Source: Acetobacter cibinongensis (GTDB taxonomy: Bacteria > Pseudomonadota > Alphaproteobacteria > Acetobacterales > Acetobacteraceae). Taken from it: a stretch of DNA of 64,000 bases. Where the stretch lies: assembly GCF_000963925.1 (NCBI RefSeq), contig NZ_BAMV01000017.1, positions 248,001-312,000 of the forward strand, read 5' to 3'. This document shows positions 50,599-55,904 of this stretch, in pieces. A model generated the notes under the pieces. That model was not told the DNA's origin. It did no database searches and worked only from the letters and a program-made list of their open reading frames with translations. Within the stretch, counting starts at the first letter, position 1. Each line of letters opens with the position of its first letter. The translations under genes and the position numbers were made by a program.

Positions 50599-51375
50599 TT
50601 AGCGGAGACTCTGCCAGATCATGTAGCCAGCAACGCAGAAGATGACTGTCGCAAAAAAGAGGATCAGGGTGCCTTTGGAGCGGGCCATGCGCCGAGCAAC
50701 CTGTGTGCCCAAGACGCTACCAATGGCTCCCCCAAAAATGAACAGGGCGGCAAGCTGCCAGTCTATGTAGCCGGAAATCATGTAACTGAGGGCTGTGCTG
50801 AAACCAAAAGCTGAGACAGCCACAAGAGAAGTGCCAACAGCATTCAGTATGGGCATGCCGGTTGAGGCAATGAGCCCCGGCACAATGAGAAAACCGCCGC
50901 CGATACCAAAGAAGCCGGAGAGCAGGCCGGTGCCAAGGCCAAACCCGGCCACTTTTCCAGCATTGTTGCGGTTACAACTGGCGCCAGGGCAGCCCTCATT
51001 GCGGCGGCCACGGATCATGATGATGGCAACACCAATCATGAGAATGGCGAAGCAGAGGAGGAGGTGTTTGCCGTCAACAGCCTTACCCGCAGTGGCGCCA
51101 AGGAAGGCCCCGACAATGCCGCAGGAGGCATAGATTGCCGCGCAGCGCCATTTGACTGTGTGGGCGCGTGCGTGTTGCGCCAGCCCCACCAAAGCGTTGA
51201 CCGCAACGGCTAGAGCGCTTGTGCCTAGCGCAACATGAGGGTTGGTCACACCCACCAGATAAACCATGAGGGGCACAGCAAGAATGGAGCCACCCCCACC
51301 AATCAGCCCCAAGGTAAAGCCCACTAACATGCCGGAAAATATTTCTAGAACAGTATGAAGAAGAGACGCTGACAT
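50599..51375 (-). CDS. TauE/SafE-family sulfite/sulfur exporter
   Basis: A 258-aa membrane protein with about eight helices. The tandem family motifs are GFTLGLIGGGGSILAVPLMVYLVG (N-terminal half) and GFGLGTGLLSGFFGIGGGFLIVPGLIA (C-terminal half). These proteins are thought to move sulfite or other sulfur-containing anions. The loop between the halves contains two cysteines (GCPGASCNRNN), which is unusual. It lies 39 bp after the persulfide-dioxygenase-like gene on the same strand, as in BigR-type sulfide-detoxification operons. Confidence 0.9.
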   Translation of the reverse strand: MSASLLHTVLEIFSGMLVGFTLGLIGGGGSILAVPLMVYLVGVTNPHVALGTSALAVAVNALVGLAQHARAHTVKWRCAAIYASCGIVGAFLGATAGKAVDGKHLLLCFAILMIGVAIIMIRGRRNEGCPGASCNRNNAGKVAGFGLGTGLLSGFFGIGGGFLIVPGLIASTGMPILNAVGTSLVAVSAFGFSTALSYMISGYIDWQLAALFIFGGAIGSVLGTQVARRMARSKGTLILFFATVIFCVAGYMIWQSLR

Positions 51376-51414
51376 GATGTGGGCCTAGTGTGGGTGGGAG
51401 TGGGGACGAGATAC

Positions 51415-52341
51415 TTAGAGTTTATTGATAGGAATTTTTATATAGCTTACGCCGTTCTCTTCTGGTTCGGGCATGTGGCCGCCCCGCATATTGATCTGCA
51501 CGGATGGCATGATCAGGTTGGGGAGAGAGAGCTTGGCATCTCGCGTTGTGCGCATTTGCACAAATTCGTCTTCCTGTGCGCCGTCATACACATGAATATT
51601 GCCTGCGCGTTCAGCGCCAACCGTTGTTTCCCACGCAAATGTATCGCGCCCCGGTGCCTTGTAATCGTGGCACAGGAAGAGGCGTGTCTGGTCAGGAAGG
51701 CTGAGAAGGCGGCGAATGGAGCGGAACAGCATGCGGGCATCGCCGCCCGGAAAGTCTGCTCTGGCGGTGCCGTAATCGGGCATGAACAGGGTGTCACCAA
51801 TAAAAGCGGCATCCCCGATAATAAAGGCCATGTCCGCAGGGGTGTGGCCCGGAACATGCAGGGCTATGGCATCCAGTGCACCAACCTTGAACTGGTCTCC
51901 ATCACGGAAAAGATGGTCAAACTGTGAGCCATCGCGTGCAAAGGGGGTGCCAGCGTTGAAGATTTTGCCAAAGACCTCCTGAACGCGCACAATATCCGCA
52001 CCGATGCCGAGTTTGCCGCCCAGTTGTTCCTGTAACCAAGGGGCGGCGGACAGGTGGTCAGCGTGGGCATGGGTTTCAAGTTGCCAGGCAACGCTCAGCC
52101 CTTCGGCTTTGACATAGGCGACAATCTGCTCGGCAGAAGTATGCTTGGTGCGGCCTGATGCCGCCTCATAGTCCAGCACGCTGTCGATAATGACGGCTGT
52201 TTTGGTGCTGGGGTCATGGACGACATGGCTGGCGGTGAAGGTGGTTTCGTCAAAAAAAGTTTTGACTACAGGTTTGAGGCCGGGCTCGCGTTCGGCTTTC
52301 AGAATTTGAGCTGTTGCCGTGGCCAGAGGCGAATCCGTCAT
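51415..52341 (-). CDS. MBL-fold persulfide dioxygenase-like hydrolase
   Basis: A 308-aa metallo-beta-lactamase-fold protein. The metal motif is ETHAHADHLSAAPWL (HxHxDH), followed by VPGHTPADMAF and the Fe/His region FLCHDYKAPGR. GDTLFMPDYGTARADFPGGDA has the Asp used by ETHE1/Blh proteins. Such enzymes oxidise glutathione persulfide to sulfite, and the exporter encoded next could then remove it. ATG 52341 follows AAGGGTG at proper spacing; a GTG three codons further up is too close to that site. Divergent from the peroxiredoxin gene across a dyad-symmetric operator candidate. Confidence 0.88.
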   Translation of the reverse strand: MTDSPLATATAQILKAEREPGLKPVVKTFFDETTFTASHVVHDPSTKTAVIIDSVLDYEAASGRTKHTSAEQIVAYVKAEGLSVAWQLETHAHADHLSAAPWLQEQLGGKLGIGADIVRVQEVFGKIFNAGTPFARDGSQFDHLFRDGDQFKVGALDAIALHVPGHTPADMAFIIGDAAFIGDTLFMPDYGTARADFPGGDARMLFRSIRRLLSLPDQTRLFLCHDYKAPGRDTFAWETTVGAERAGNIHVYDGAQEDEFVQMRTTRDAKLSLPNLIMPSVQINMRGGHMPEPEENGVSYIKIPINKL

Positions 52342-52365
52342 CTTTGGCACCCTTACAGTTTAAGA

Positions 52366-52399
52366 TTTAATATAAATGTGTATATCATATTTCATTAAA
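52366..52399. promoter_or_regulatory. A/T-rich inverted repeat, candidate ArsR-family operator
   Basis: TTTAATATAAATG and CATATTTCATTAAA form an imperfect inverted repeat centred in the 106-bp gap between the divergent persulfide-dioxygenase-like and peroxiredoxin genes. BigR-type regulators bind similar A/T-rich dyads. The ArsR gene at 53104 is the likely repressor. Both points are inference. Confidence 0.5.
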
Positions 52400-52447
52400 T
52401 ACGAAACCATCTTGCGTCAAGCACGCCAATCCGCTTAAGAACGCTTT

Positions 52448-53107
52448 ATGAGCGACAGTAATTTGGACTCCTGCCCCCTTTATCACTCGCGGGCCATTCT
52501 GCAGATTGGTGACTCCGCGCCAGATTTTATGGCACGCACCACACATGGTGACCTGACTTTCAGTGCTTTACAGGGGCACTGGGTTCTGCTGTTTGCGCAT
52601 CCGGCTGATTTTACACCGGTCTGCACAAGTGAGTTCATAGCCCTTGCGCGTGCTGAGCCGCAGTTCAGAGCTTTGAATTGCGCTCTTGTCGGGGTGTCTG
52701 TTGATAGTCTGCCGTCTCATCTGGCGTGGGTGGAAGCTATCCGGACACAGTTTGGTGTGACCATTCCCTTCCCGATTGTGGAAGACCCTTCCATGTCTAT
52801 TGCCCGTGCTTACGGTATGCTGGACATGACGGCCCAAAGCAGCGTGACGGTACGTGCTGTGTATGTCATTGACCCTGACGGCATTGTGCAGGCCATTAGC
52901 TGGTACCCCCCAACCGTTGGACGCTCCGTGCAGGAGTTGTTGCGTCTGGTTCAGGCTCTTCAGCGCGTGGCGCAGGATGGGGTCATGACTCCTGAAGGCT
53001 GGCAGGTGGGACAACCCGTTATAGCCCCCATTCAACAGACACAGCAGGCCGTGGCAGCCGCTGGTCCTGCATGGTTTATGGATTTGTCACAGGGGTCTAA
53101 GGCATGA
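52448..53107 (+). CDS. Peroxiredoxin of the Prx6 (AhpC/TSA) group
   Basis: A 219-aa thiol peroxidase. The peroxidatic cysteine motif is DFTPVCTSEF, with the conserved Pro, Thr and Cys, and the later Arg in QSSVTVRAVYVIDPDG. The long C-terminal extension (VGRSVQELLRLVQALQRVAQDG) is typical of the Prx6 / 1-Cys-like group, which reduces organic or lipid peroxides. The start of the protein reads DSCPLYHSRAILQIGDSAPDF; the extra Cys at residue ~8 is not in the active site. The stop overlaps the ArsR start by 4 bp, so they are co-translated. Confidence 0.92.
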   Translation: MSDSNLDSCPLYHSRAILQIGDSAPDFMARTTHGDLTFSALQGHWVLLFAHPADFTPVCTSEFIALARAEPQFRALNCALVGVSVDSLPSHLAWVEAIRTQFGVTIPFPIVEDPSMSIARAYGMLDMTAQSSVTVRAVYVIDPDGIVQAISWYPPTVGRSVQELLRLVQALQRVAQDGVMTPEGWQVGQPVIAPIQQTQQAVAAAGPAWFMDLSQGSKA

Positions 53108-53526
53108 CCCCGCTTTCACTTGAGGAAGCAAAACAGCTTGTTGAGCGCCTGAAGCTTTTTGCGCAGCCACAGCGTTTGATTATTGTGGATGCCCTGTTGC
53201 GTGGACCGCTTGCCGTGAGTGAGCTGGAAGCCAAAACCGGCATTGGCCAGCCAACACTCAGCCAGCAGCTTGGCACATTACGCCGCGCTGACATTATTGC
53301 GCCACGGCGCGAATCTCGCGCCATTTATTATAGCCTGACAAATGAAGAAGAGGTCTTGCGCGCCCGCGCTTTGATCGGTCTTTTACGTGAGGACAAGGCC
53401 GCTATTCCGTTAGCGCAGCGCATGGCCGAACAACGGGCGGCTGTTTCGTCCCCCTCTAAAAAACAGGTTGAGAGTGGGGCGCAGTTTGCCTTTATTCGCC
53501 GACCCCCACAGGCTAGCGAAGCCTGA
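53104..53526 (+). CDS. ArsR-family transcriptional regulator without cysteines
   Basis: A 140-aa winged-helix repressor. FAQPQRLIIVDALLRGPLAVSELEAKTGIGQPTLSQQLGTLRRADIIAPRRESRAIYYSL is the complete ArsR DNA-binding domain. Its neighbours match those of BigR/SqrR/YgaV, which sense persulfides through a pair of cysteines, but this protein contains no Cys at all, so it must sense differently or be a constitutive or redox-insensitive repressor. The C-terminal ~45 residues are basic and look unstructured. It is translated from an ATGA overlap with the peroxiredoxin gene. Confidence 0.9.
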   Translation: MTPLSLEEAKQLVERLKLFAQPQRLIIVDALLRGPLAVSELEAKTGIGQPTLSQQLGTLRRADIIAPRRESRAIYYSLTNEEEVLRARALIGLLREDKAAIPLAQRMAEQRAAVSSPSKKQVESGAQFAFIRRPPQASEA

Positions 53527-55452: not shown

Positions 55453-55590
55453 AACTAAGAGAAAAATTATGAATACCTGGCCCCCGTTACAAAGGGCAGG
55501 GCGATTTTCTGAGAGTAGCACCGAAGCTTTACTTGGCTAAAAGCAGAACTCTCACAGTAAAAAATCATGTAATTTTTGGTGTGATGAGGT

Positions 55591-55904
55591 GGTGTCCGCG
55601 ACGGGATTCGAACCCATGGCCCCAGGATTCATACCACTTCGGTTTTCACCGCCCCGCCTTTGCATATGCAAAAGCGTGTTCGTGGTCTGGACTGTCCCTT
55701 TGCCCTAGACCGTATGGTCCTTAGGCATCGCCCATCCAGTCTCTACACCTTCCGGCCTTTTCAGGCGCGGCTTGGCTCGGGATTGGCACGACCCAAGAGG
55801 GTCAGAGCGTTCCCCGACTTTGAGCGAATACACCATGGGGTTTCCCGTCATGGCGCCCAATTACATTAGGAATCCTGTGCTCTATCCTGCTGAGCTACGC
55901 GGAC
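55591..55904 (-). tRNA. tRNA-Arg (CCU) interrupted by a group I intron
   Basis: Exon 1 is 55904-55868 (37 nt: acceptor GTCCGCG, D-arm, anticodon stem CAGGA and TTCCT). Exon 2 is 55630-55591 (40 nt, beginning AATCCTG, with T-loop GGGTTCGAATCCC, acceptor CGCGGAC, discriminator A and encoded CCA). Joined, they give a 77-nt cloverleaf with a 5-bp anticodon stem and loop TTCCTAA, anticodon CCT. A 237-nt insertion separates them directly after the anticodon. The exons lose meaning as a tRNA unless it is removed. Decodes the AGG codon. Confidence 0.93.
55631..55867 (-). ncRNA. Group I self-splicing intron in tRNA-Arg
   Basis: 237 nt. The 5' exon ends in U and the intron ends in G, the group I rule. 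The internal guide GGGAA (in GACGGGAAACC) pairs with the exon end TTCCT, giving the U-G pair at the splice site (P1). Core elements are recognisable: an R-like stretch GTGTAGAGACTGGATGG and an S-like stretch AAAGGGACAGTCCAGACC that can form P7, preceded by a P/Q-like AATCCCGAGCC. The short length without an open frame fits the IC3-type tRNA introns known from a few alphaproteobacteria and cyanobacteria. No homing endonuclease is present. Confidence 0.9.

Follow-up and report, generated by a model that had tools for sequence, protein, structure and literature searches.

The window, the whole 64,000-nt stretch of Acetobacter cibinongensis DNA analysed here, carries on its minus strand a split tRNA-Arg(CCU) gene (55590–55904) made up of a 37-nt exon, a 238-nt intron and a 40-nt exon with an encoded CCA. 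Exon 1 (55868..55904, minus strand) comprises the 5′ strand of the acceptor stem, the D arm, the 5′ strand of the anticodon stem and the loop through the anticodon base U36. The intron (55630..55867, minus strand) lies between tRNA positions 36 and 37 and its last base is the G at 55630. Exon 2 (55590..55629, minus strand) supplies A37, the 3′ strand of the anticodon stem, the variable and T arms, the 3′ acceptor strand and the CCA. ARAGORN in its normal mode called no tRNA at this location. With an intron allowed it returned tRNA-Arg(cct) with an intron at position 38 and a length of 238, i(38,238), and the joined exons (77 nt) gave a complete tRNA-Arg(CCU) fold including the CCA, with a score of 123. 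The initial annotation had recognised a tRNA-Arg(CCU) gene split by a group I intron, which is borne out by the fold of the joined exons and by the match to the Rfam group I model described below (E 5e-7). It had placed the gene at 55591–55904; the location is right but one boundary is off by one base, since the A of the CCA lies at 55590. Likewise, the intron is 238 nt and not 237 nt long. The U at the end of exon 1 and the G at the end of the intron had both been identified correctly.

On the sense strand of the intron, each of the three frames contains 2–3 stops and the longest open run is 51 codons; on the antisense strand one frame is open throughout (79 codons). The ORFs overlapping the split gene (60–69 aa) gave no Pfam match to any endonuclease. 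Thus, in agreement with what had been proposed, no endonuclease frame was found in the window intron.

Group I structure and internal guide of the intron

The Rfam group I model RF00028 matches the window at 55673–55880, covering model positions 1–253 of 253, with 34.4 bits and an E-value of 5e-7. The score is below the curated gathering score of 50: Rfam run at the gathering threshold reported no intron in the window, and the match was found in a relaxed search. A covariance search, which had been suggested as a check on the group I assignment, therefore supports it by E-value and not by the curated cut-off. In the genome from which the window is taken (G000), the intron is the sole RF00028 match at E up to 10 and the sole match of a covariance model of the intron core at E up to 1. 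At E up to 10 RF00028 also matches in 8 of 14 control genomes, in 2 of them above the cut-off. When 20 intron loci of the family were compared with the model, an E-value of 0.001 or lower was obtained for 15 and a score above 50 bits for 4, and a low score like that of the window intron is therefore usual for the family.

To count base pairs we drew the secondary structure by hand on the known group I plan and scored it on an alignment of 37 sequences, consisting of the window gene and 36 homologues (35 from the same genus and 1 from another family). Over the P1–P10 structure 96.4% of 2441 cells hold standard pairs, and 33 of the 66 pairs show two-sided changes. The covariation score was 0.315 compared with 0.153 for shuffled alignments; none of 500 shuffles scored as high, and sliding one side of the helices gave at most 0.086. 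Two-sided changes are present in the P2, P3, P5, P5a, P6a, P8 and P9 stems. As P1, P4, P6, P7 and P10 never vary among the 37 sequences, no covariation can be shown for them and their support comes from conservation. The weakest helices are P5a, paired in 82.2% of cells, and the distal part of P8 (88.1%).

All helices lie on the minus strand. The P2 hairpin (55831..55855) has a GAAA loop, with two-sided changes at 6 of 9 pairs and 97.9% of cells paired. The 5′ strand of P3 (55822..55827) pairs with its 3′ strand at 55728..55733; by the pair counts of the alignment all cells are paired and 2 of 6 pairs change on both sides. Between the two strands lies the P4-P5-P5a region (55777..55817), in which P4 is invariant and two-sided changes occur at 1 of 2 pairs in P5 and all 5 pairs in P5a. 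P7 of group I introns is the guanosine-binding site, and here it is predicted to be formed by a 5′ strand at 55738..55743 (R element) and a 3′ strand at 55689..55693 (S element). Both strands are invariant in the 37 sequences and correspond to the R- and S-like core elements noticed initially. In the pseudoknotted P3-P7 core, the two covarying pairs of P3 thus stand beside a P7 supported by conservation. The P8 hairpin (55701..55727) shows two-sided changes at 7 of 9 pairs, and the P9 domain (55633..55686), which consists of a closing stem, a peripheral hairpin and a P9.2 hairpin with a GAAA loop, at 9 of 13. At the level of sequence, the E-value of 5e-7 together with a covariation above all 500 shuffles confirms that the block is a group I intron and not a chance resemblance.

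The internal guide is predicted to be the GGG (55856..55858, minus strand) within AAUUGGGC. It pairs with the terminal CCU of exon 1 to form P1, with U36 opposite the first G, and both the guide and this U-G wobble at the 5′ splice site are found in 37 of 37 sequences. The AUU immediately 5′ of the guide (55859..55861, minus strand), also invariant in 37 of 37, pairs with AAU, the first three bases of exon 2 (P10). A different guide, GGGAA, had been proposed in the initial annotation, and we rejected it. These bases fall in the loop of P2, in which GGAAAC is constant but the base preceding it is not, and a guide made of them would leave 13 of the 37 homologues without the splice-site U-G pair. 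The Azoarcus tRNA-Ile(CAU) group I intron, whose structure has been solved, presumably shares with the window intron a site in the anticodon loop, a three-base guide, a P2 with a GAAA loop and a similar core, whereas its host tRNA and guide differ.

The same features bear on how the intron would be removed. Excision by a protein endonuclease and ligase, as for tRNA introns of archaea and eukaryotes, is a pathway not known in bacteria, and the full set of group I helices, the guide fitting the exon and the final G all argue against it. The site after the anticodon does lie near the usual place of such introns, as described in a passage of PMC4033280. We regard protein-mediated removal as extremely improbable.

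Search for an intact gene and predicted splicing

Rfam detected 38 tRNAs in G000, and ARAGORN read the anticodons of 30 of them. None of these 30 has a CCT anticodon; the other 8 are 82–89 nt long. A search of the genome with the spliced sequence gave 5 matches; the list shows two of them, each an exon matched at 100%, and the other three are weaker than the last one listed. Thus, as far as a draft of 120 contigs allows, no other intact tRNA-Arg(CCU) gene was found in G000; by the initial reckoning such a copy, beside an unspliced gene, would have made this one a pseudogene. A short pattern for the intact anticodon loop gave 19 matches in G000 compared with 41 for a backward control and was dropped. 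Glu, Ile(GAU) and Ala(UGC) are also absent among the 30 anticodons read, which include only two CAU; the genes for the absent tRNAs may lie in assembly gaps.

We extended the search to 150 genomes of the Acetobacteraceae, counting a tRNA-Arg(CCU) as intact if the match was 58 bases or longer and had an E-value under 1e-18. The family intron is present in 71 of these genomes, and in 58 of them the host is tRNA-Arg(CCU). An intact tRNA-Arg(CCU) was found in 0 of these 58 compared with 69 of the 92 others (Fisher 6e-23, kinship ignored). Two of the 69 intact calls are partial matches of 58 and 63 bases (G207 and G089), and the best 30 of the 69 were read as Arg(cct) by ARAGORN. The remaining 23 genomes hold neither form at this threshold, some of them with weaker matches. 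As none of the 58 shows an intact copy, splicing is the only evident route to tRNA-Arg(CCU) in genomes that carry the intron in this gene. In one genome an extra, divergent and intact tRNA-Arg(CCU) occurs alongside the split gene (L076, G033:C45).

G015 (1.5 Mb, 96% complete), the single genome of the genus in which the intron was not found, shows no intact tRNA-Arg(CCU) either. It carries tRNA-Arg(UCU), and tRNA-Arg(CCU) may therefore be dispensable. One alternative is that the split gene is a dead relic, a tRNA gene broken by an intron that has lost splicing, with AGG read by wobble by tRNA-Arg(UCU). The presence of a tRNA-Arg(UCU) (L002), the lack of any tRNA-Arg(CCU), split or intact, in G015 and the RF00028 score under the cut-off would fit such a relic. 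Low scores are, however, the rule in the family, as the 4 passes among 20 tested loci show, the exons form a complete tRNA, and over 37 genes there is covariation in most helices apart from P1, P4, P6, P7 and P10, which do not vary. We therefore consider a relic very unlikely, though less so than removal by proteins.

From the anatomy, the covariation, the conservation and the lack of a found intact copy, all of them read from sequence, we infer that the window intron splices and by which chemistry. We are highly confident that the gene gives rise to a precursor whose 238-nt group I intron splices itself to yield a normal tRNA-Arg(CCU), and that this intron is the Acetobacter member of a known alphaproteobacterial family. 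The gene would be transcribed as a tRNA-Arg(CCU) precursor whose anticodon loop is interrupted by the intron between positions 36 and 37, and the intron would fold by itself into its P3–P9 core. Exon CCU and intron GGG would form the three pairs of P1, and a guanosine bound in P7 would attack after U36. The freed exon 1 would then attack after the last G of the intron, with P10 (exon 2 AAU and intron AUU) aligning the exons, to give the normal tRNA-Arg(CCU).

The split gene explains a tRNA that is missed by standard tools in Acetobacter. As the Rfam cut-off, passed by 4 of 20 loci, also misses most such introns, annotations of acetic acid bacteria probably record tRNA-Arg(CCU) as missing.

Related introns in other tRNA genes

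The covariance model of the intron core also found relatives in other tRNA genes. ARAGORN in intron mode misplaces the splice sites of these introns (many Arg(CCU) introns are returned as ‘His(atg)’), and we used splice-rule resolvers instead. Hosts were assigned by requiring a U at the exon end, a G at the intron end, U33 and a purine at 37, plus a guide match, which decides where ARAGORN scores tie, as they often do. Six loci were reassigned by hand at score differences of 0.1–1.3, namely L270, L271, L303 and L339 to Leu UAA and L353 and L354 to Lys UUU. L268 and L272 were dropped because their assignment was unclear, and 8 of 220 rows are without a resolved host. Among 201 rows the hosts are Arg(CCU) (132), Leu(UAA) (29), Lys(UUU) (11), Thr(GGU) (9), Lys(CUU) (3), Leu(CAA) (2), Thr(CGU) (2) and Thr(UGU), Arg(UCU) and Asn(GUU) (1 each), with 10 unassigned; these counts are not frequencies, as the pattern used to fetch 80 named loci demanded the Arg(CCU) exon and all 80 were assigned to that host on this ground. 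The host types are thus ten: Arg CCU, Arg UCU, Leu UAA, Leu CAA, Lys UUU, Lys CUU, Thr GGU, Thr CGU, Thr UGU and Asn GUU. The window intron follows anticodon base 3, whereas its relatives in Leu(UAA) follow anticodon base 1.

Because P1 and P10 are invariant within Arg(CCU) genes, the introns in other tRNAs are the better test of the guide. As the score of the host resolver already used the guide match, we rechecked the guide as the triplet at a fixed distance of 11–13 nt 5′ of the P2 loop. This could be done for 177 of 220 rows, and in 170 of the 177 the triplet matches the exon of its own host. In the Thr(GGU) introns it fits GGU in 9 of 9 and none of six other exons, and in both Thr(CGU) introns (2 of 2) CGU is the one exon that it fits. 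The Leu(UAA) introns fit CUU in 30 of 30, CCU in 0 and UCU in 14. The test is thus specific for Thr(GGU) and Thr(CGU) and largely so for Leu(UAA), and non-specific for Leu(CAA) and Arg(CCU). For Arg(CCU) this is because a run of G pairs loosely: triplets of the 129 Arg(CCU) rows also fit CUU, UCU, GUU and CGU exons in 111–128 of 129. All 7 misses are Arg(CCU) rows, and their triplets suggest a guide one base further out. Lys(UUU) was excluded from the test, as UUU pairs loosely, and Asn(GUU) has no row in it. By the host assignment, guides fit each site in L067 (G005), L273 (G136), L275 (G202), L309 (G173) and L352 and L355 (G411, G308), which cover Thr(UGU), Arg(UCU), Asn(GUU), Leu(CAA) and Thr(CGU).

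In tRNA-Lys(UUU), related introns lie after base 35 in L061 (G010), L063 (G029), L064 (G031), L065 (G001) and L265 (G139). For the Acetobacter genomes G001, G010, G029 and G031 this is a second intron of the family; another Acetobacter genome, G005, has its second one in tRNA-Thr(UGU) (L067). We found no intact tRNA-Lys(UUU) in G001, G010, G029, G031 or G139, many of the genomes being drafts and G029 86% complete. The same search found a full-length copy at 97–99% in G000 and G005, whose only or extra intron is elsewhere. On a tree of the 201 cores a minimum of 23 host changes is needed, compared with a mean of 56.5 after shuffling and a least possible number of nine. The tree is poorly resolved: stars mark 21 of its 196 inner branches, and these branches require just 1–2 changes per host.

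These observations are consistent with a single family of tRNA-specialised ribozymes, the window copy of which has no endonuclease frame, that passed from one anticodon loop to another across at least ten tRNA types with its guide changing to fit, perhaps by reverse splicing into the tRNA and copying back to DNA. It would have entered tRNA-Lys(UUU) in the five genomes in which no intact copy was found, so that a tRNA needed to read AAA codons would depend on the ribozyme there. We give this reading about an even chance of being right. If the family does change its host tRNA with a matching three-base guide, it would let one study, as a natural experiment, the ways in which group I introns arrive at new sites when no endonuclease is involved. 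In the portions of the literature that we consulted, we recognised no report of a proteobacterial tRNA-Lys, Thr, Asn or Leu(CAA) carrying an intron of this kind. For the hosts Arg(UCU) and Leu(UAA) there is a published parallel, in Thiomargarita and its relative BOGUAY (PMC4853749). Introns of 22–49 nt are claimed for cyanobacterial Arg, Gly and Lys tRNAs in an excerpt of PMC5733544; in our judgement, from the lengths given there, these are too short for group I.

Known relatives, distribution and neighbourhood

The window intron, which is unannotated, is an ordinary representative of a known family, the tRNA-Arg(CCU) introns of alphaproteobacteria. According to PMC7717549, this intron was first found in Agrobacterium (Paquin et al., 1999, as cited there). 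Likened by description, the Agrobacterium intron shares host tRNA and bacterial class with the window intron, the lineage here being Acetobacter. The same text reports an intron of Bartonella bacilliformis, BbgpI, that also lies in tRNA-Arg(CCU) and was missed by annotation; it is from another species and again likened by description, and it self-splices, its splicing having been shown in vivo and in vitro, whereas that of the window intron is predicted. Other Bartonella introns (L084, L115) align with the window core, as do loci titled Azospirillum, Mesorhizobium and Rhodobacter, and the homologues fetched by pattern carry the same exon and core as the window gene. Within the Acetobacteraceae, a table footnote (PMC4596401, Table 1) describes one tRNA(Arg) of Asaia bogorensis, a different species, as ‘split by a sequence homologous to a group I intron’; among our genomes, G208 carries a family intron in Arg(CCU). 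A cyanobacterial intron is of the same kind as that of the window, as far as the description in an extract of PMC4033280 goes. In tRNAscan-SE 2.0, a missing fMet or Ile2 gene in 36 genomes was explained by group I introns (PMC8450103).

Bacterial group I introns in tRNAs had been called rare initially; this one is not. The full-length split gene is present in 35 of 36 genomes of the same genus, and the intron core in 71 of 150 genomes of the family and 50 of 385 of the class, where the filters lose some weak matches. A pattern scan of named genomes found at least 119 stretches. To locate the core by regular expression we used a widened version, an earlier one having failed at 22 of 44 loci. 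Of the 80 titles listed from the scan, 79 are alphaproteobacteria, judging by the names, and one says only ‘Proteobacteria’; the genera include Acetobacter, Gluconobacter, Asaia, Bartonella, Azospirillum, Rhodobacter and Mesorhizobium. The other 39 of the 119 (L162–L200) were left out of the analysis. Nor is the intron a compact or minimal ribozyme, as had been supposed: the Arg(CCU) introns measure 213–318 nt with a median of 231 nt (n = 142, window included and a few places counted twice), and 104 of the 142 are shorter than 238 nt.

HolA (PF06144) is encoded beside the split gene in the window. Within flanks of at most 1.5 kb, HolA was found at 19 of 29 Acetobacter loci (L032–L060) and not at the other 10, and phosphoglucomutase, which lies on the other side of the gene in the window, at 0 of 29. 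The split gene thus keeps one neighbour in only part of the genus, and these data count against its having been inherited at a fixed position.

In three genomes the 3′ end of the split gene is present a second time (L077 in G021, L079 in G028 and L080 in G023). The copy in L077 includes the last bases of the intron, and a comparison by eye showed that the similarity of L077 and L079 to the main gene continues into the downstream sequence. Integrated elements that attach at exon 2 may account for these copies. Near the split gene in the window (50599–53526), Pfam identifies a TauE/SafE exporter, a protein with a metallo-beta-lactamase fold, a peroxiredoxin and a regulator of the ArsR family; by their predicted functions, the genes look like a sulfide/persulfide handling group.
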